Position numbers and translations under genes: made by a program. Below, one piece after another: positions 2,653 to 15,153 of a DNA stretch of 21,542 nt; positions within the stretch are counted from its first letter, which is position 1, and each line of letters begins with the position of its first letter. This DNA comes from a virus: IMG/VR virus record IMGVR_UViG_3300041955_000659, positions 1-21,542 of that record. The stretch is one strand, 5' to 3'. A model generated the notes under the pieces. It did no database searches. It was not told the DNA's origin and was given only the letters and a program-made list of their open reading frames with translations.

Positions 2653-3027
2653 GCTATCGGCTATCACTTTGCTATCGTTTGGGAGTGATAGTCGTGATAA
2701 GTAGCTGGTAGCACGGGGGAATCGTGCCGCTTAGTGACTGCCTGAGCTATCACGGCTATCGATAGCCTATCGTCTTGCGTGAAACGTTAGCAAATCGGGG
2801 GAAGTAGCTGTGTTAACTTGGAGAACTGTCCGGGGGGAGTTTGGTCCTATCACGCGCGCGCCCGCGTGGCGGTGCGCGCCGCCTAGGCGCGGGCGCGCAA
2901 GGGTACGTGTGCGTAATGCGCGCGCTCGTGCGCGAGGGGACTTCCGAGAGATCTGCTGGCACAGGGATTGGGGTCCTATCATCTCAAGTGATAGGATAGT
3001 GATAGTCCATGATAGGAACGATAGGAG
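2653..3027. repeat. CTATC/GATAG box array
   Basis: I count about 15 occurrences of CTATC or its complement GATAG within some 375 bases; fewer than one would be expected by chance. Many are extended to CTATCAC/GTGATAG or TCCTATCA/TGATAGGA. Two form dyads: a perfect 14-base palindrome, GGCTATCGATAGCC, at 2754-2767, and TCCTATCA (2974-2981) with TGATAGGA (2989-2996) around a 7-base spacer. The array ends about 120 bases before the first late gene. It could be operators for one regulator or iterons of a replication origin. Confidence 0.65.
2856..2898. repeat. Large GC-rich hairpin/cruciform
   Basis: GCGCGCCCGCG (2856-2866) pairs exactly with CGCGGGCGCGC (2888-2898), and inside it GGCGG (2868-2872) pairs with CCGCC (2879-2883). 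The 43-base structure has 16 strong base pairs. No T-run follows on either side, so it is not a classical intrinsic terminator. It sits within the GATAG-box array. Confidence 0.6.
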
Positions 3028-3072
3028 GGCAGCGGCGAGTGCGGAGCGGATGATACCCCCGGTCGGTGCCGC

Positions 3073-3137
3073 TGTAAAGGGGGGGCTTTACAAACGCGGC
3101 GAATCAGTTTAGACGCCTTGACCCTAGGTGGAGGGTC
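3073..3137 (+). promoter_or_regulatory. Leader hairpins upstream of the NusG-like gene
   Basis: Two inverted repeats precede the first late gene. TGTAAAG (3073-3079) pairs with CTTTACA (3086-3092) across six Gs. GACCCT (3120-3125) pairs with AGGGTC (3132-3137) across AGGTGG. The second would sequester the presumed Shine-Dalgarno (GGAGGG, 3130-3135) of ATG 3145. They may be an operator, a translational control hairpin or a recruitment element for the NusG-like factor. These roles are inference. Confidence 0.4.
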
Positions 3138-3144
3138 GGCGCGC

Positions 3145-3588
3145 ATGGAGTGGGTAGCGACCGTGGTGGCACCAAACTGCGAGAGACGCGTCGAGCGCGA
3201 TCTGCGCCGCCAGGACATCACCGAGATCTACTCCCCCCGCTTCCGCGACAGTCGCTTCCCCAAGAATCCCCCCCGCTCGCTCTTCCCAGGATACATCTTC
3301 GCTCGTGTAGCCGCTGTCACGTGGCGCGCGCTGCTCGGCACGCGGGGCGTGCTGGCGGCGCTGACGTCGCCCGTGCTGGGCCACGAGATAGAGCGGCTGC
3401 GCGCCAGCGAGCGCGGCGGGCTAGTCGTCGTGCCGGAGCCCGATCCGTGGATGCTCGGCGCGACTGTTCATCTTCAGCGTCTGGGCTGCGTTGGCGTCAT
3501 CGACGCGTGTCTGGGCGCGAGCAGAGTACGTGTCGATCTAGGGCACGTGAGAGCAACCGTGAACGTAGCTGACCTGGTTCTCGCCTGA
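3145..3588 (+). CDS. NusG/RfaH-family transcription factor
   Basis: This 147-residue protein matches the NusG family end to end. The NGN domain comes first: MEWVATVVAPNCERRVERDL, then EIYSPRFRD and RSLFPGYIFARV around residues 48-59, then a GTRGVLAAL segment. A C-terminal KOW-like domain follows (MLGATVHLQRLGCVGVIDAC near residues 102-121, ending VNVADLVLA). Family members bind the clamp helices of RNA polymerase and adjust pausing or termination. ATG 3145 is chosen because NusG proteins begin immediately before the Trp strand; a TTG at 3118 would add nine unconserved residues. GGAGGG lies nine bases upstream. Its place as first gene of the late operon, just before terminase, suggests it promotes read-through of this long unit. 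It is shorter than cellular NusG (about 180 residues). Confidence 0.85.
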   Translation: MEWVATVVAPNCERRVERDLRRQDITEIYSPRFRDSRFPKNPPRSLFPGYIFARVAAVTWRALLGTRGVLAALTSPVLGHEIERLRASERGGLVVVPEPDPWMLGATVHLQRLGCVGVIDACLGASRVRVDLGHVRATVNVADLVLA

Positions 3589-3679
3589 TCAGGCCCGAAG
3601 CATTGGGTCCGGAGAGCAGGGGTGTGGCGGACAGAGAGTGGGCTCGCGGAGCTCTCCCCTCTCGCAAACGGCGGCAGCT

Positions 3680-4258
3680 ATGGAAGCGGAGACGTTGGAA
3701 CGGCGTCCGGTAGGGCGGCCGAGCACTTACCAGCCGGTATACGCACAGTATGCGCGGCAGATGTGCAGGCTCGGTGCTACTGACGCGGATATCGCCGAGT
3801 TCCTGGGGGTCGAGATTTCGCGGGTCGGCACATGGGCCGCGATCTATCCTGAGTTCGCCCAAGCCCTAAAACTCGGCAAGGAACTCGCCGACGACGCGAT
3901 GGAGCGCAGTCTCTACCAGAAGGGCCGCGGCTTCTACGTAGAGACCGAGAAGATCTTCTGCAACGACGGGGTCATTACGCGGGCGAGGTCCAGGGAGTAT
4001 CACCCCCCGGACACCGCCGCCGCGTTCATCTGGCTGAAGAACCGCCGCCGCGACGAGTGGCGTGACCGTCACGAGATCGCGCACTCCGGCAAGGTGGAGC
4101 ACAAGTTCAGCCTCTCCGTCTTCGACGGGCAGCGCGAGATCATGGACGAGCAGCGCGCCGCGGACAGGCGCGTGTTGGAGCTCGCGGCGGAGAAGACGCT
4201 GGAGCCCGCGATCAATGGTGGCATGCCGCGTCTCAACGGGAACGGTTACGACCGATGA
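3680..4258 (+). CDS. Terminase small subunit
   Basis: This is the DNA-recognition subunit of the packaging motor. The N-terminal part (VGRPSTYQPVYAQYARQMC, then GATDADIAEFLGVEISRVGTWAAIYPEFAQAL) is the helix-turn-helix typical of phage small terminases. The central part (LYQKGRGFYVETEKIF, then HPPDTAAAFIWLKNRRRDEWRD) is also characteristic. The charged C-terminal tail probably contacts the large subunit. ATG 3680 gives 192 residues. A GTG at 3638 in the same frame would add 14 residues and follows a GCGGACAGAGAG stretch, so the start is not settled. The stop overlaps the start of the small membrane peptide gene by four bases. The immediate neighbour TerL supports the call. Confidence 0.85.
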   Translation: MEAETLERRPVGRPSTYQPVYAQYARQMCRLGATDADIAEFLGVEISRVGTWAAIYPEFAQALKLGKELADDAMERSLYQKGRGFYVETEKIFCNDGVITRARSREYHPPDTAAAFIWLKNRRRDEWRDRHEIAHSGKVEHKFSLSVFDGQREIMDEQRAADRRVLELAAEKTLEPAINGGMPRLNGNGYDR

Positions 4259-4368
4259 CTACGCGCTCGCATCCGCTCGCCGATGGCTTCTTCTGGGCTA
4301 CAATCGCGTTTATTTTCGCGGGTGCCGTGATCGTTGTCTACGCCGCGTTGGCGGAGATCTTTTTCTAA
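4255..4368 (+). CDS. 37-residue single-span membrane peptide
   Basis: A short ORF starts at ATG 4255, overlapping the terminase small-subunit stop (ATGA), and ends with TAA at 4366-4368, six bases before the terminase large-subunit start. The product begins MTTRSHPLADGFFW and continues with a strongly hydrophobic helix of about 20 residues (ATIAFIFAGAVIVVYAALA), ending EIFF. It has a basic N-terminus and one predicted transmembrane segment. The tight fit between two essential packaging genes, with coupled translation, argues that it is a real gene despite its size. It has no recognisable family. A holin-like or membrane-tethering role is possible but unproven. Confidence 0.55.
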   Translation: MTTRSHPLADGFFWATIAFIFAGAVIVVYAALAEIFF

Positions 4369-4374
4369 GTTGCA

Positions 4375-5778
4375 ATGGGCCGCGGCCAGGCATCCCTGAA
4401 CAATCTCGCGGGCATAGGGCGGCGCGCTCGCGAGGAGCACCCCTCGGTCAGTCCGCCTAAGCCCGAGGTCGTGCTGGAGTACACGCGCCCGCCGCTGTAT
4501 GCCAAGCAGTCCGAGGCTATATTCGACCCTCGCCGCATCAGTGCGATAGAGGCCTCCACCAAGTCGGGGAAGACGTCGGGGTGCATCGCGTGGCTGTTCG
4601 AGCAGGCACTCGGCGCAAGAAGACCGGGGCAGAACTACTGGTGGGTTGCACCCGTGAGTCAGCAGGCGGACATTGCGTTCCGGCGCACGTGCCGCGCAGT
4701 GCCGCGCGAGCTCTACGAGGCGCACCTGGGGCTCAAGACGGTTACGCTGCCGCACAACGACGCGGTAATGTGGTTCAAGTCCGGCGACAATCCGGACACG
4801 CTCTACGGCGAGGACGTCTTCGCCGCCGTAGTGGACGAGGCGTCCCGCACCAAGCCGGAGGTCTGGCACGCCCTGCGCTCCACGCTGACCGCGACGCGCG
4901 GGCCGGTGCGCATAATCGGCAACGTCAAGGGGCGGCGCAACTGGTTCTACGAGCTGGCGCGCGCCGCTCAGCGCGCTACCGAGGCGCGGGCACGCGGCGA
5001 CAACGATCCCGATCCGACGCTGGCGTACCACAAGCTGATCGCCGCGGACGCGGTGGAGGCCGGCGTGCTCTCCGCACAGGAGGTGGAGGAGGCCCGCGGT
5101 CACCTGCCTGAGCTCGTCTGGCGCGAGCTCTATCTAGCGGAGCCGGCCGATGATCAGGGCAATCCGTTCGGACTCGCGCACATACGCGGGTGCGTGGCGC
5201 CGCTCAGCACTGCGGACCCCGTAGTCTGGGGCTGGGACCTCGCGAAGAAGCAGGACTGGACCGTGGGCATCGCGCTCGACTCCACGTGCCGCGTCTGCCG
5301 CCTCGTGCGCTTTCAGGCGGACTGGGAGCAGACGTTCAATCGCGTCACGGCGGCCACGGGCCGCGTGCCGGCGCTGGTGGACTCAACCGGCGTGGGCGAT
5401 CCCATAGTGGAGCGTCTCCAGCGAGTGGCGGCGTCGCGCTACGAGGGGTTTCAGTTCACCGCGCAGTCCAAGCAGAAGCTGATGGAGGGCTTAGCGGTGG
5501 CCATCCAGCATCGCAACGTGACGTTTCCGCTGGGACCGATCGTGGACGAGCTGGAGATCTTCGAGTACGTCTACACGCCTGCCGGGGGCGTGCGCTACGC
5601 GGCCCCGGAGGAATACGGCGCGCATGACGACTGCGTCATGGCACTAGCGCTGGCGGTGCAGCACCGTGCGGGCGCTCCGGCGCCGATGCGCATAACGCCG
5701 GAGGTCATCGCCGCGGCGGCGCGGCGGCCGAGCGGGAGAGTGGGGGAGCGAATGCGGTTTGGGATGAGGTTGCCATAA
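4375..5778 (+). CDS. terL: Terminase large subunit (TerL), packaging ATPase/nuclease
   Basis: This 467-residue protein pumps DNA into the prohead and cuts the concatemer. ATPase elements: adenine-binding region YAKQSEAIFDP near 42-52, Walker A ASTKSGKT at 60-67, Walker B VFAAVVDE at 148-155, and a coupling segment RIIGNVKG near 179-186. RNase H-like nuclease elements: WGWDLAKKQDWT with Asp near 288, ALVDSTGVGD with Asp near 336, and GAHDDCVMALALA with the acidic pair near 418-419. All expected acidic residues are present and the length is normal. ATG 4375 has little Shine-Dalgarno character, so it may depend on coupling to the small membrane ORF ending six bases upstream. The next start is one base after the stop. 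Confidence 0.93.
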   Translation: MGRGQASLNNLAGIGRRAREEHPSVSPPKPEVVLEYTRPPLYAKQSEAIFDPRRISAIEASTKSGKTSGCIAWLFEQALGARRPGQNYWWVAPVSQQADIAFRRTCRAVPRELYEAHLGLKTVTLPHNDAVMWFKSGDNPDTLYGEDVFAAVVDEASRTKPEVWHALRSTLTATRGPVRIIGNVKGRRNWFYELARAAQRATEARARGDNDPDPTLAYHKLIAADAVEAGVLSAQEVEEARGHLPELVWRELYLAEPADDQGNPFGLAHIRGCVAPLSTADPVVWGWDLAKKQDWTVGIALDSTCRVCRLVRFQADWEQTFNRVTAATGRVPALVDSTGVGDPIVERLQRVAASRYEGFQFTAQSKQKLMEGLAVAIQHRNVTFPLGPIVDELEIFEYVYTPAGGVRYAAPEEYGAHDDCVMALALAVQHRAGAPAPMRITPEVIAAAARRPSGRVGERMRFGMRLP

Positions 5779-6250: not shown

Positions 6251-7991
6251 GAAGTCACAGAAACGTCCGCGCCGTCCTCCCTCCCGGAGCAGGCGCGGAC
6301 GTGGCGCCGCCGCTCATCCCCGTCCCCCCAGACAGAAGCGGCGGCGCCAGTCACCTCAAGAGAAGACCGCGCGTAAGCAGACGCTGAAGCAGGCTACGCT
6401 GACCCCGCGACAGGCCGCGCGCATTACTCACGAGATCGTGGCACGTGCCCGAAAAGGGCGCCCCCCGCTCGTGCCGATGATGATGGACAGCGTCTTCGCG
6501 CCCGCCAGGCCTCCTCCGGGGGTCGTGCCCAAGAAGGCGCAGATCGCGCTGGACAGCGCGCAGAATCAGGTCATCCAGTGGGCCGGGCAGTTCGGCTTCT
6601 ACAACGGTACGTTCGCGCAGGGCTACACGTTCATGGGGTACCCGTACCTGGCCGAGCTGGCGCAGGTGCCGGAGTACCGAGTCATCACCGAGACGCTCGC
6701 GGAGGAGATGACTCGCAAGTGGATCCGCTTCCAGGCGGTAGGCGACGACGATCTGGACGAGCAGCGCGCCGACCGAATCCACGAGCTCGAGGACCGCATG
6801 GACGAGCTCGTGGTGCGTGACGTGTTCCGCCGCACGGACGAGCTCGACGGCTTCTTCGGGCGTGGACACATCTACATAGACCTCGGCAATACCGAGGAGC
6901 GCGAGGAGCTCCGCACCAGCATCGGCAACGGGCGCGACGCCGTCAGTCGTCGCAAGATAGGGCGCCGGAACAAGATCTACGCGCTGCGTCCCGTGGAGCC
7001 GGTTTGGACGTACCCCACCACGTACAACAGCGATGATCCGCTGCGGCCCGACTGGTACGCGCCGACGCACTGGTTTGTGATGGGCAAGGAGGTCCACGTC
7101 TCGCGGCTGCTGCCGTTTGTCAGTCGGCCGGTGCCGGACCTGCTGAAGCCAGCGTACTCGTTCGGTGGTCTGAGCATGTCGCAGATGGCCAAACCCTACG
7201 TGGACAACTGGCTGCAGACGCGGCAGTCGGTGAACGAGGGCGTCCACACCTACTCCACGATGGTGCTGGGCACCAACCTGGCGGAGTCCATGCAGCAGGG
7301 TGGTGAGCAGCTGTTCATGCGCGCCGAGCTCTTCAACGCTACGCGGGACAACCGCGGGCTGATGATGACGGACAAGGAGTCCGAGACCCTGGAGAACGTG
7401 GCGGTGCCGCTGGGCTCGCTCGATCTGCTCCAGGCGCAGGCACAGGAGCACATGTGTGCGGTGAGCAAGACGCCCACCGTCAAGCTGCTCGGCTTGCAGC
7501 CCGCGGGCCTGAACGCGTCCAGCGAGGACATGATGCGCGTCTTCGAGGACATGATCGCCGCTCGGCAGGAGCGCTTCTACCGCCCGCACCTGACTAAGAT
7601 CGTGCACCTGGTCATGCTCGAGCTCTGGGGCGAGGTGGACGAGAGTATTACATTTCAGTTCGTGCCGCTGCGCTCCCTGGACGAGCGCGGGCAGGCGGAG
7701 GTGCAGAAGATCAAGGCGGAGACGGACGTCGTCCTCGTGGACGGCAATATCCTCCACACCGAGGAGTCGCGGCAGCGCATCGCCGACGATCCCAACTCGC
7801 CGTATCCGGGGCTCGACGCGGACGACGTGCCGATAGAACCAGAAGACGAGATCTCCGGTGGCGAGGAGGGTGGGGGGCTGACGAAGACGAAGATAAACGT
7901 GGCGGGTGGCGACGAGGCCGCGCTCGCGGCGAACGGGGGTGTCCCGCTCGGAGCGCGGAGGCGCAGACAGAATGCCGCGCCGACGCACTAG
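6240..7991 (+). CDS. Portal protein (DUF1073 type)
   Basis: The portal is the dodecameric ring at the capsid vertex through which DNA passes. The body matches DUF1073 portals: VIQWAGQFGFYNG and FMGYPYLAELAQVPEYRVITETLAEEMTRKW near the start, FGRGHIYIDLG, then SFGGLSMSQMAKPYVDNW, and the late SKTPTVKLLGLQPAGLNASSED segment. The first 80 or so residues are extremely basic and probably disordered. No ATG lies near the expected start. TTG 6240 is preferred because GGAAG lies six bases upstream, giving 583 residues; TTG 6207 in frame would add 11. Either overlaps the preceding gene. The acidic C-terminus overlaps the next start at 7972. Position after terL and before a gpF-like protein is canonical. 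Confidence 0.88.
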   Translation: MPSKKSQKRPRRPPSRSRRGRGAAAHPRPPRQKRRRQSPQEKTARKQTLKQATLTPRQAARITHEIVARARKGRPPLVPMMMDSVFAPARPPPGVVPKKAQIALDSAQNQVIQWAGQFGFYNGTFAQGYTFMGYPYLAELAQVPEYRVITETLAEEMTRKWIRFQAVGDDDLDEQRADRIHELEDRMDELVVRDVFRRTDELDGFFGRGHIYIDLGNTEEREELRTSIGNGRDAVSRRKIGRRNKIYALRPVEPVWTYPTTYNSDDPLRPDWYAPTHWFVMGKEVHVSRLLPFVSRPVPDLLKPAYSFGGLSMSQMAKPYVDNWLQTRQSVNEGVHTYSTMVLGTNLAESMQQGGEQLFMRAELFNATRDNRGLMMTDKESETLENVAVPLGSLDLLQAQAQEHMCAVSKTPTVKLLGLQPAGLNASSEDMMRVFEDMIAARQERFYRPHLTKIVHLVMLELWGEVDESITFQFVPLRSLDERGQAEVQKIKAETDVVLVDGNILHTEESRQRIADDPNSPYPGLDADDVPIEPEDEISGGEEGGGLTKTKINVAGGDEAALAANGGVPLGARRRRQNAAPTH

Positions 7992-9576
7992 AGACGTCGT
8001 GCTCCGCCCCGTCCGCCCCAACGCGGGCCTGGAGGCATGCTACCGCAAGCGGCTGCGTCGTCTTGTCGAGCAGATGACGCGCTCCGTGCTCTATTGGGTG
8101 CGGGCCGCGTACCGCGCCAACGAGCCGGAACTGGCACAGGACGCCAACGCTGCGACCGAGCTGCGCCGCGCGTTGCGGAAGCTCACGGCGCGGTGGCAGT
8201 CGCGCTTCGACGAGGCGAGCGAGGAGATGGCGGAGTGGTTCGCGCAGTCGGCCTCCGCCCGCAGCGACGCCAGCATGCGGCGCATCCTGCGCAACGGCGG
8301 CCTCAGCGTGCGCACGCGGCACACGCCCGCGCAGCGCGAGGTCATGGGCGCGATAGTCGCGGAGAACGTGGCGCTGATCAAAAGCATTCCGCAGCGCTAT
8401 CTCGGCGCGGTTGAGGGCTCCGTGATGCGCTCGGTGCAGACGGGGCGCGACCTCAGCGCGCTGACCAAGGAGCTGCAGAAGGAGCACGGCGTCACGTCGC
8501 GCCGGGCCGCGCTGATAGCGCGGGACCAGAACAACAAGGCCACCGCGGCGCTGCACCGCGTGCGGCAGACGGAGCTCGGCATCACGGAGGCCATCTGGCT
8601 GCACTCCGGCGGCGGCAAGCACCCGCGGCCAACGCACAAGCGCAACAGCGGCAAGCGCTACAACGTGGCGGAGGGATGGTACGATCCGGAGGTCAAGCGG
8701 AACGTGTTCCCCGGAGAGCTCATAAATTGTTTTCCAGGCCAATCAAAGATCCAGTTCGCGCGTAATATAGAAGTAGCGTACCGGCGTTTCTACACAGGCG
8801 AATTGGCCTTTTTGGTTACGGAATCTGGTAAAACGCTCCGAGCGACACCAAATCACCCGGTTCTTACGAAACGAGGGTGGGTCCCGATAAGTTTGGTCGA
8901 TGTAGGCGACTACATCACTGAGATTGCCTCGGACACAATCATTCCTGCCGTAGCTGAAAGCTATGTAGATAACACAGTACCCTCTCTTGTTGAGATATTT
9001 GATTCTCTTGCGAGAACGGGGAAGGTTAGGCCGAGGTCGTCCCTGGGTTACTTCCACGGCGATGCTGTCTGCGATAGCAATGTCGATGTTGTAGATGCCG
9101 CAAGGCCGTTGAGCTTCGACAGTTTTGAACTGCTTAGAAAGAGCCGAGAAAACCAGATCTTCACAGGCTCCAATTATCCTAGACTTGCGCATAGCTTTGT
9201 TTCTAAGCTCTTTACGCGAGGCTTTTTTGCCACGGCGCGCTTCGTTGGCTTTTCTGGTAATTTCTTTGCGCCTTTTAGGACTTTCTTTTTGCATCCGCAA
9301 CTTGTTGGCTTCTCCGAGCGTTCTTCTGGTTCCTCCTGCAGCCAAGATACGATTAAGAACAGGTCCTCTGTCGATTTGAAATTTTTTGGCGAGAGCCGCG
9401 AGACTAATCCCCTTTTCATATTGCCGACGAAGCATTCTCGCGTCACCCATGTCGATGTAACCACGTTTGATGGACATGTCTACAACCTCCAGACTTCTGA
9501 CGGATGGTACGTGACCGGGGGGATCATAACACACAATTGTCGCTGTGTGTCACGCAGCGTGATACCGGGACTGTAG
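7972..9576 (+). CDS. Mu gpF-like head morphogenesis protein interrupted by an intein
   Basis: The 534-residue precursor is a minor head protein of the Mu F/SPP1 gp7 family, which associates with the portal and internal capsid. Family hallmarks are ALIARDQNNKATAALHRVRQ around residues 181-200, WLHSGGGKHPRPTHKR, and the C-terminal PGELIN...CRC. The PGELIN and CRC parts are separated by 270 intein residues (codons 8728-9537). Without the intein the host protein would be 264 residues: 252 before and 12 after (CRCVSRSVIPGL). ATG 7972 has GGAGG ten bases upstream; an in-frame GTG at 7906 lies deep in portal and is rejected. The start overlaps portal. The insert is much less GC-rich than the exteins (one 60-base line at 9241 is 40% GC versus 65% at 8641). 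Confidence 0.9.
   Translation: MPRRRTRDVVLRPVRPNAGLEACYRKRLRRLVEQMTRSVLYWVRAAYRANEPELAQDANAATELRRALRKLTARWQSRFDEASEEMAEWFAQSASARSDASMRRILRNGGLSVRTRHTPAQREVMGAIVAENVALIKSIPQRYLGAVEGSVMRSVQTGRDLSALTKELQKEHGVTSRRAALIARDQNNKATAALHRVRQTELGITEAIWLHSGGGKHPRPTHKRNSGKRYNVAEGWYDPEVKRNVFPGELINCFPGQSKIQFARNIEVAYRRFYTGELAFLVTESGKTLRATPNHPVLTKRGWVPISLVDVGDYITEIASDTIIPAVAESYVDNTVPSLVEIFDSLARTGKVRPRSSLGYFHGDAVCDSNVDVVDAARPLSFDSFELLRKSRENQIFTGSNYPRLAHSFVSKLFTRGFFATARFVGFSGNFFAPFRTFFLHPQLVGFSERSSGSSCSQDTIKNRSSVDLKFFGESRETNPLFILPTKHSRVTHVDVTTFDGHVYNLQTSDGWYVTGGIITHNCRCVSRSVIPGL
8743..9477 (-). CDS. Antisense-nested homing endonuclease (HTH + Vsr/PD-(D/E)XK-like)
   Basis: This 244-residue gene lies wholly inside the intein on the opposite strand. 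N-terminal helix-turn-helix: LRRQYEKGISLAALAKKF then DRGPVLNRILAAGG, residues about 16-49. A very basic linker follows (RTLGEANKLRMQ, then RRKEITRKANEARRG), similar to linkers in Vsr-like homing nucleases. The nuclease core at about 100-175 is IIGACEDLVFSALSKQF, GIYNIDIAIADSIAVEV, then KYLNKRGYCVIYIAFSYG. Candidate catalytic residues are E106, D132 and E142. Its role would be to cut intein-less alleles so that repair copies the intein. ATG 9477 is chosen because GGAGGT lies seven bases upstream. The frame opens to a GTG at 9534, three bases inside the intein edge; the TGA is at 8745-8743. Its codon boundaries coincide with the intein frame. Nuclease-family placement is by motif only; activity is inferred. 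Confidence 0.82.
   Translation of the reverse strand: MSIKRGYIDMGDARMLRRQYEKGISLAALAKKFQIDRGPVLNRILAAGGTRRTLGEANKLRMQKESPKRRKEITRKANEARRGKKASRKELRNKAMRKSRIIGACEDLVFSALSKQFKTVEAQRPCGIYNIDIAIADSIAVEVTQGRPRPNLPRSRKRIKYLNKRGYCVIYIAFSYGRNDCVRGNLSDVVAYIDQTYRDPPSFRKNRVIWCRSERFTRFRNQKGQFACVETPVRYFYITRELDL
9485..9528 (-). promoter_or_regulatory. Shine-Dalgarno and extended -10-like sequence for the antisense gene
   Basis: On the minus strand GGAGGT (9490-9485) lies seven bases before ATG 9477, which is essentially consensus. Further upstream TATGAT (9528-9523) is preceded by TGT (9531-9529), making an extended -10 pattern TGnTATGAT; transcription from it would begin near 9516. No good -35 is seen at 17 bases. 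The Shine-Dalgarno is antisense to the Asn-Leu-Gln codons of block F, and the -10 is antisense to the Ile-Ile codons of block G. The ribosome site is strong; the promoter is a candidate only. Confidence 0.55.
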
Positions 9577-14585: not shown

Positions 14586-14675
14586 GGACAAGATGTCAGA
14601 GGTAGCAAAAGCGTCGTCGTCCGGCACCGTGGACAAGATGTCAGAGGTAGCAAAAGCGTCGTCGTCCGGCACCGT
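14586..14675 (+). repeat. Perfect 45-bp tandem duplication over a start codon
   Basis: Two identical 45-base units (14586-14630 and 14631-14675) each contain an ATG (14593 and 14638) and encode the same 15 residues, starting MSEVAKASSSGTV. GAGAGG, the probable Shine-Dalgarno, sits at the junction before the first copy only. Exact identity implies a recent duplication. Confidence 0.9.
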
Positions 14676-15153
14676 CACGGTAGCCTGCAAGATCCCCGCG
14701 GGACTGGTGCTGAGCCTGGACCGCATGGTCGAGGGCCAGGAGCCGGTGATGGGCGGGGGATGGAAGACGGTGAAACGGGCGGAGCCGATAGGCGAGCCGG
14801 TGCGGCTGCTCGGCCCGCGCAAGCTGGTCGGCGAGCTCCAGCGCAATCTCGTGGCGGGCTACGCGCTGACCTACGGCGTGAGCCGAGAGTTCTGGGACGC
14901 GTGGTACGCGGCCAACAGAGAGACCGATCTCGTGCGCAACCGGATGGTCTTCGCGCACGAGCGCAACACAGAGGCGCTCGCCAAGGAGCACCGCAAGGCG
15001 CTCAGCAATCTGGAGCCGCTGACTACCGCGCAGCGGACCGAGGGCGACCGCAAGGTGCCCGTGGACCCGCGCTGGCCGCGACGTCCGGCAGGCAGCACGC
15101 TCGGCGAGCTGGAGTCCGACCCCGACAGCGACAACACCAAGCGGGCGGCGTAG
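14593..15153 (+). CDS. Hypothetical phage structural-region protein with duplicated N-terminus
   Basis: The 186-residue product starts with two copies of a 15-residue segment, then a compact beta region (TVTVACKIPAGLVLSLDRM, GWKTVKRAEPIGEPVRLLGP). A helical part follows (VSREFWDAWYAANRETDLVRNRMVFAHERN, then ALAKEHRKALSNLEPL) with a charged disordered tail. I recall uncharacterised phage proteins with the CKxPxGLxL and FWxxWxxxN patterns in head-tail clusters but know no function. ATG 14593 has GAGAGG upstream. The second ATG at 14638 lacks it, so the longer form is preferred. It precedes the DUF4054 adaptor gene. Confidence 0.65.
   Translation: MSEVAKASSSGTVDKMSEVAKASSSGTVTVACKIPAGLVLSLDRMVEGQEPVMGGGWKTVKRAEPIGEPVRLLGPRKLVGELQRNLVAGYALTYGVSREFWDAWYAANRETDLVRNRMVFAHERNTEALAKEHRKALSNLEPLTTAQRTEGDRKVPVDPRWPRRPAGSTLGELESDPDSDNTKRAA

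Follow-up and report, generated by a model that had tools for sequence, protein, structure and literature searches.

Background

Canonical large inteins normally carry their homing nuclease, of the LAGLIDADG or HNH type, as an in-frame domain of the sense-strand protein. A further association with inteins was reportedly described by Dassa and colleagues in 2009, namely that of EDxHD/Vsr-related nucleases with split inteins in "fractured genes". Antisense homing endonuclease genes (HEGs) occur in nuclear group I introns of myxomycetes (Dsq.L2066/I-DsqI and Dir.S956-2; PMC9548176), and HNH genes hidden out of frame have been found in methylase inserts, which are not inteins, of the phages ShiLan and Pacc40 (PMC11855218). 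Here we analyze a virus record of 21,542 bases (IMG/VR IMGVR_UViG_3300041955_000659; henceforth the window, to which all window coordinates refer), in which a gpF-like head morphogenesis gene is interrupted by an intein whose opposite strand carries a gene of 244 codons. From sequence and model comparisons we propose, with a probability of about 0.88, a mobile intein with an antisense-encoded homing endonuclease, in which the splicing domains are truly double-coding.

The locus shares features with each of these systems. As in canonical large inteins, a splicing domain and a homing nuclease belong to a single mobile element located in a conserved motif of an essential gene; however, the nuclease is here a separate antisense protein instead of an in-frame sense domain. 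With the fractured genes it has in common the nuclease fold family, as judged by profile and fold, and the association with inteins in phages, but there a free-standing endonuclease gene lies between the halves of a split intein, whereas here the whole gene lies opposite a contiguous intein, and in 181 of 183 loci a single sense open reading frame (ORF) runs through the overlap. The myxomycete introns likewise have the HEG on the opposite strand of a self-splicing element, and it is antisense-expressed there; yet these are RNA introns in ribosomal DNA with the HEG inserted in the peripheral segment P9.2, and the accessible part of that report does not describe double coding (PMC9548176). Here, in contrast, the HEG resides in a protein-coding intein, and its base pairs double as codons of the splicing domains. 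The ShiLan and Pacc40 inserts are also open in the host frame and hide an endonuclease in another frame, but they differ in that intein or intron domains went undetected, a ribosome-binding site is lacking and the nuclease is of the HNH type (PMC11855218).

The intein and the gene on its opposite strand

The gpF-like minor head/capsid morphogenesis gene (7972-9576, + strand; N-terminal extein 7972-8727, C-terminal extein 9538-9576) matches the Pfam family Phage_Mu_F (E=2.2e-10) and the head morphogenesis families phrog_324/15127. It is interrupted at the gpF motif N|CRC by an intein of 270 residues (8728-9537, +), which begins with a Cys, ends in His-Asn and is followed by a Cys at position +1. 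The window intein displays Cys1, TPNH in block B, HVYNL in block F, a penultimate His and the HN|C end, and thus has the hallmarks of a class 1 type intein (Cys1, block B TxxH, penultimate His, terminal Asn and +1 Cys/Ser/Thr). Its match to the Pfam Intein_splicing model (E=9e-7, 29.3 bits) lies under the gathering score of 35.8. The splicing residues C1, T40, H43, N270 and C271 are invariant in the sense alignment (A6). In an AlphaFold2 model of the sense protein, built from an alignment of depth similar to that of the antisense protein, residues 1-66 and 231-271 have a predicted local distance difference test score (pLDDT) mostly above 90, and much of the middle of the intein scores 35-65; Foldseek comparison of this fold recovered the RecA and RadA inteins with a probability of 1.00. 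Family searches with the sense translation matched no nuclease family. Inverted repeats were not found in or around the intein, and direct repeats there were limited to short two-copy matches.

The antisense gene (8743-9477, - strand) is predicted by profile, fold and 181 of 183 homologous loci to code for a homing endonuclease. It extends from an ATG at 9477-9475 to a stop codon at 8745-8743, and its maximal frame (8743-9534, 792 nucleotides) falls 15 and 3 nucleotides short of the two intein edges. Its codons are the exact reverse complements of the sense codons (register 0), with the antisense stop TGA facing the Ser6 codon TCA. The overlap has a G+C content of 0.49, the extein one of 0.68. 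A 556-residue antisense frame without known meaning faces the portal gene (6351-8021, -), indicating that antisense length in itself is uninformative in this GC-rich window, and synonymous resampling of the sense codons yields P(open)=0.03 for the window locus taken singly; length was therefore dropped as evidence. An earlier note on this DNA, made from the sequence, had delimited the complete splicing element, the 244-codon gene starting and stopping inside it and the 3- and 15-base margins of its maximal frame, had remarked on a ribosome site and a lower G+C content, and had cautioned that length proves nothing in such DNA; all of these readings agree with the coordinates, family matches, intein blocks, fold and composition reported here.

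Identification of the antisense protein

Searches with the single antisense sequence gave only E=0.026 in Pfam, nothing credible in the PDB and no match in NCBIfam, and profiles were needed. With an alignment of 62 antisense proteins, the Pfam family REase_MTES_1575 matches 26 of the 62 members (best 1.9e-10), DUF559 matches 8 and helix-turn-helix (HTH) models match up to 23. A profile search of the PDB retrieved the endonuclease-like protein 3hrl (1.6e-6) and the "mobile intron protein" I-Bth0305I (3r3p, 8e-4). The AlphaFold model of the antisense protein is of high confidence (pLDDT 95.7, predicted template modelling score 0.82), and its top fold match in the PDB is again the catalytic domain of I-Bth0305I, an EDxHD homing nuclease (probability 1.00, template modelling (TM) score 0.67 on the target). 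An unnamed viral protein in BFVD (A0A3G3BXE8) matches the model over its full length (E=2e-17, TM 0.74).

The predicted protein comprises an HTH domain (residues 10-46), a basic helical linker, an EDxHD/Vsr-like core (residues 104-198) and a C-terminal β-hairpin (residues 207-241). As in the EDxHD family, the core is PD-(D/E)xK-like with conserved acidic residues: E106 (9160-9162, -), the motif Y129-N130-x-D132 (D132 at 9082-9084, -) and E142 of the AVE motif (9052-9054, -), which aligns with a Glu of 3hrl, are invariant in all 62 sequences. The suggestion of the earlier note that the antisense strand codes for an HTH, a basic linker and a nuclease core with YNID...AVEV is thus upheld by the Pfam matches and invariant residues, and its nuclease fold by the profile and structure comparisons. 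Glu142 faces Phe109 of a near-invariant sense motif, FHGD (intein residues 109-112, window 9052-9063), whose conservation may reflect the demands of the antisense gene and not those of splicing.

Taken together, the two models suggest that both strands encode confidently folded protein over about 80 codons. In one such stretch (8746-8925), most of which has a pLDDT above 90 on both strands, intein N-domain residues 7-66 face nuclease residues 185-244; the other (9418-9477) pairs intein C-domain residues 231-250 with nuclease residues 1-20.

Selection on both strands

Substitution patterns differ strongly between the single-coded and the overlapping regions. Across six pairs of guernseyviruses, extein substitutions divide among the three sense codon positions as 0.23/0.15/0.62 and those of the overlap as 0.54/0.12/0.34; twelve other pairs agree (0.28/0.23/0.50 versus 0.43/0.20/0.37). 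Substitutions in the intein thus concentrate at the third position of the antisense codons, the reverse of the extein pattern. We also counted, in 20 pairs, single substitutions silent only in the sense frame against those silent only in the antisense frame. Their ratio is 170:69 in the intein N-domain, 188:635 in the middle and 29:31 in the C-domain, whereas the single-coded extein gives 626:39 and 831:112. These regional ratios indicate that both frames are constrained, with the nuclease dominant in the middle and the splicing domain at the N-terminal side; the sequence of the sense linker in the middle is probably dictated largely by the nuclease. Constraint on the sense frame only, which the earlier note had named as the pattern that would count against it, is not seen, and its central proposal of splicing and nuclease functions sharing the same base pairs gains from the conservation, the constraint on both frames and the two confident folds.

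Recurrence among related loci

A tblastn search with the antisense protein against phage genomes matched the antisense strand of gpF inteins, with about 30% identity over about 90% of the length in the best matches, in phages of Klebsiella, Aggregatibacter, Edwardsiella, Salmonella, Escherichia, Vibrio, Pseudomonas and Gordonia. Two scans of viral contigs detected 196 relatives (80 fetched) and 451 relatives (80 fetched), and a scan of genome contigs found 23 in prophages or metagenome-assembled genomes (MAGs) of Firmicutes, Chloroflexi, Cyanobacteria, Actinobacteria and others; the latter were recovered by the subfamily with a GGxWH motif, and the window-like subfamily as query in the same scan found nothing. 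Of the 183 related loci examined, 181 keep both an antisense frame and an intein-matching sense frame open, without exception in register 0; the carriers are viral contigs and prophages or MAGs of many bacterial phyla. The antisense stops that the earlier note had envisaged for most homologous inteins, should its idea be wrong, are accordingly not observed. In a non-redundant set of 61 loci, all 61 have an open antisense frame, and none is open in any of the four other non-sense frames, a comparison indicating that the antisense frame is more than chance. The joint log10 probability of the open antisense frames given the sense proteins is -246 over these 61 loci, and that of the converse (sense given antisense) is -180; both values are indicative and not exact, as the loci were found with the antisense protein as query and related loci were treated as independent. 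Among the phage records examined in detail, the antisense frame is annotated only in Salmonella phage PK1, as a hypothetical protein.

Two of the relatives show peculiarities of their own. The gpF gene of a Scytonema prophage (L104, 1789-4578, -) contains two inteins, a short one without a nuclease and another with an antisense nuclease. In locus L035 the sense intein has one in-frame stop (1573-1575) with the antisense nuclease frame intact, reflecting either a sequencing error or decay of splicing.

A Thermoleophilia MAG (L099) encodes a relative of the nuclease as a free-standing gene (2953-3648, +). Its neighbour, in convergent orientation, is a gpF gene (3632-4678, -; Phage_Mu_F 2e-18) that is intact and lacks an intein, SHPQCRC running on without a break; the two genes overlap by 17 bases at the end of gpF. 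As a query against phage genomes, this free-standing nuclease recovers the frames antisense to gpF inteins (101 matching records, best E 2e-29). Given that its gene overlaps no intein, this similarity cannot be an echo of sense-strand conservation. The free-standing form is possibly an ancestor or an escaped copy; neither it nor the nuclease of locus L116 recovered further viral contigs as query.

Expression signals within the splicing motifs

The putative expression signals of the antisense gene lie within conserved intein blocks. Its Shine-Dalgarno sequence GGAGGT (9485-9490, -), 7 nucleotides before the ATG, falls in the block F codons for Asn-Leu-Gln; the ATG (9475-9477, -) lies opposite the block F His codon, CAT; and an extended -10 promoter-like element, TGTTATGAT (9523-9531, -), falls in block G, in the codons of GIIT. 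As a null for these signals we used sense-synonymous positions and the codon usage of the inteins themselves. The block F His codon is CAT, giving an antisense ATG, in 44 of 48 cases (expected 25.4 +/- 3.3), and the block F Leu codon is CTC, giving an antisense GAG, in 37 of 48 (expected 15.6 +/- 3.2). The best extended -10 score in the last 60 intein bases is 5.38 family-wide, against a null of 4.48 (standard deviation 0.11), and in three loci (L041, L058 and L063) TTGACA and TATAAT, 18 bases apart, span the same intein blocks. The antisense gene thus appears to possess its own start codon, ribosome site and -10 element, enriched over the synonymous expectation.

Mobility and insertion sites

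The intein-less gpF junction of the window protein (GAGCTCATAAAT joined to TGTCGCTGTGTG) is matched by 953 phage records; in 937 the match covers 80% of the query or more, and all of the matches listed are single pieces. The intein is absent from Salmonella phages whose identity across the guernseyvirus junction reaches 97.7%. Intein and extein similarities are discordant among guernseyviruses: the pair L005/L003 shows 0.95 for the intein versus 0.73 for the extein, and the pair L089/L091 shows 0.80 versus 0.91. A higher identity of intein than extein was set aside as a sign of transfer, double coding being expected to slow divergence as well, and only the discordance between pairs was counted. 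The same element is also found in a gene of the uracil-DNA-glycosylase family (L077) and in a glycosyltransferase-25 gene (L116), and in the gpF gene of Kagunavirus KMB36 (L199, 805-2775, +) an intein with an antisense nuclease occupies a second site, before CRARDGM and upstream of the usual one. The empty alleles, the discordant similarities and the spread to the glycosylase and glycosyltransferase genes show what is expected of a mobile element: precise presence or absence at one site, and transfer that does not follow the host gene. Carriers include culturable phages of Salmonella, Klebsiella, Escherichia and Gordonia, some of which have close intein-less relatives.

A second intein with an antisense nuclease

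The Gordonia phages SchottB and Nordenberg have a different, unrelated intein at the same gpF site, again with an antisense ORF, which contains VAAFIDGEGTVTV (L201, 1549-2136, -; L202, 1495-2082, -). This ORF matches phrog_5046, named "HNH endonuclease" (2e-15), and weakly the LAGLIDADG enzyme I-MsoI (1e-3); a search of Pfam gave no match. The LAGLIDADG-like ORF is antisense in nine Gordonia records, and the "DNA endonuclease" genes of cyanophage PP are distant homologues; the L201 protein as query retrieved no further viral contigs. Substitutions opposite the ORF are distributed as 0.70/0.08/0.22 over the sense codon positions, versus 0.19/0.18/0.62 in the extein. No clear Shine-Dalgarno sequence precedes its ATG. 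The EDxHD intein and the Gordonia intein together imply that the antisense layout occurs with two unrelated nucleases.

The earlier note knew of no described class with such a layout. This holds only in part: antisense HEGs (PMC9548176) and out-of-frame HNH genes (PMC11855218) are known, and it is solely the combination of an antisense HEG with an intein and full double coding that looks new. Our literature search found no description of an antisense endonuclease within an intein; its coverage did not extend to a 2025 bioRxiv preprint by Gosselin, Arsenault and Gogarten, "Actinobacteriophage Inteins: ... Non-Canonical Architecture" (10.1101/2025.01.02.630785), a survey of inteins in the phage group to which the Gordonia carriers belong, which PMC11855218 cites for overlapping reading frames and which may already cover the Gordonia cases.

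Proposed mechanism and alternative explanations

In the proposed mechanism the sense frame would provide a class-1-type splicing domain, its two halves joined by a poorly ordered linker, and the intein would splice out of gpF to leave a functional head protein. The antisense gene would be transcribed from within the intein, with its promoter-like element, ribosome site and start codon in the C-terminal blocks, and its product, an HTH domain with an EDxHD/Vsr-like nuclease, would cut intein-less gpF alleles at N|CRC in mixed infections. Repair by recombination would then copy the intein together with the nuclease gene.

Several observations weigh against this proposal. The Foldseek E-value for 3r3p is just 0.013. 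The GGxWH motif, with a candidate for the downstream His of EDxHD, is found in the A5 subfamily and is missing from the window protein and its own subfamily, so that catalysis could be altered or lost in the window copy. A scan for the sigma-70 consensus called no promoter at the antisense start in the window, and the promoter claim accordingly draws solely on the family-wide -10 enrichment. Only one free-standing relative was found, and it comes from a MAG. Finally, the high identity of inteins relative to exteins could partly reflect the constraint of double coding and not transfer.

That the antisense frame might be a mere by-product of intein conservation in register 0 and of the avoidance of a few codons, with no product, is conceivable in view of the long antisense frames elsewhere in the window and the modest P(open) of the single locus, but it would leave unexplained why the translation matches unrelated nuclease and HTH families and folds with a pLDDT of 95.7. 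The free-standing, non-overlapping homologue and the substitutions that follow the antisense codons speak strongly against it, as do the preferred start, Shine-Dalgarno and -10 sequences at sense-synonymous sites and the closure of the other four frames in all 61 loci, and we regard it as extremely improbable. Hardly more credible is the notion that only the nuclease gene is functional, with gpF simply tolerating an insert that stays in frame and does not undergo protein splicing. The low confidence of the sense middle, where antisense constraint dominates, is compatible with it, and inserts of the ShiLan type are thought to be tolerated in this manner (PMC11855218); nonetheless, the splicing residues are invariant, both splicing domains fold as inteins, the N-domain shows sense constraint (the 170:69 ratio) and the sense frame stays open in nearly all loci.

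The alternative that deserves most attention, though still an unlikely one, is that the antisense product is a nuclease-fold DNA-binding protein which no longer homes (a regulator, an exclusion factor or a degenerate HEG) and is retained for another function. Its HTH domain and the loss of GGxWH in the window clade would fit such a role, as would the persistence of open frames across large divergence, given how often homing genes decay. Against it stand the invariance of E106, D132 and E142 and the patchy presence and absence among very close phages. The gene also occupies the position of the usual intein endonuclease, its free-standing copy adjoins the presumed target gene, and an unrelated LAGLIDADG-like antisense nuclease is seen in the same place of another intein. 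We therefore favor a mobile intein with an antisense homing endonuclease.

Elsewhere in the window, a tandem duplication (14593-14680) lies at the start of a small ORF, in which MSEVAKASSSGTV is encoded twice.

Conclusions

On balance we lean towards a broader view, in which such loci would form a class of mobile inteins with splicing and mobility on opposite strands in a fixed register, and with the promoter, ribosome site and start codon of the nuclease gene placed within the splicing motifs. This class would have had at least two origins with unrelated nucleases (EDxHD and LAGLIDADG-like) and would extend to phages of many phyla. The loci examined here join two known parts, an intein and a homing nuclease, in a layout missed by standard annotation. 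They are a clear and widespread example of two folded proteins being fully double-coded in antiparallel fashion, with a functional logic, and offer natural data on how two proteins share one stretch of DNA in register 0. The old question of why homing endonucleases persist becomes directly testable, as sense-silent mutations can remove the nuclease and leave splicing untouched. If the proposal is correct, a mutation that inactivates the nuclease would in many cases also harm the splicing domain and hence the host protein, and the layout may thereby shield the nuclease gene from the loss phase that usually belongs to the homing cycle.
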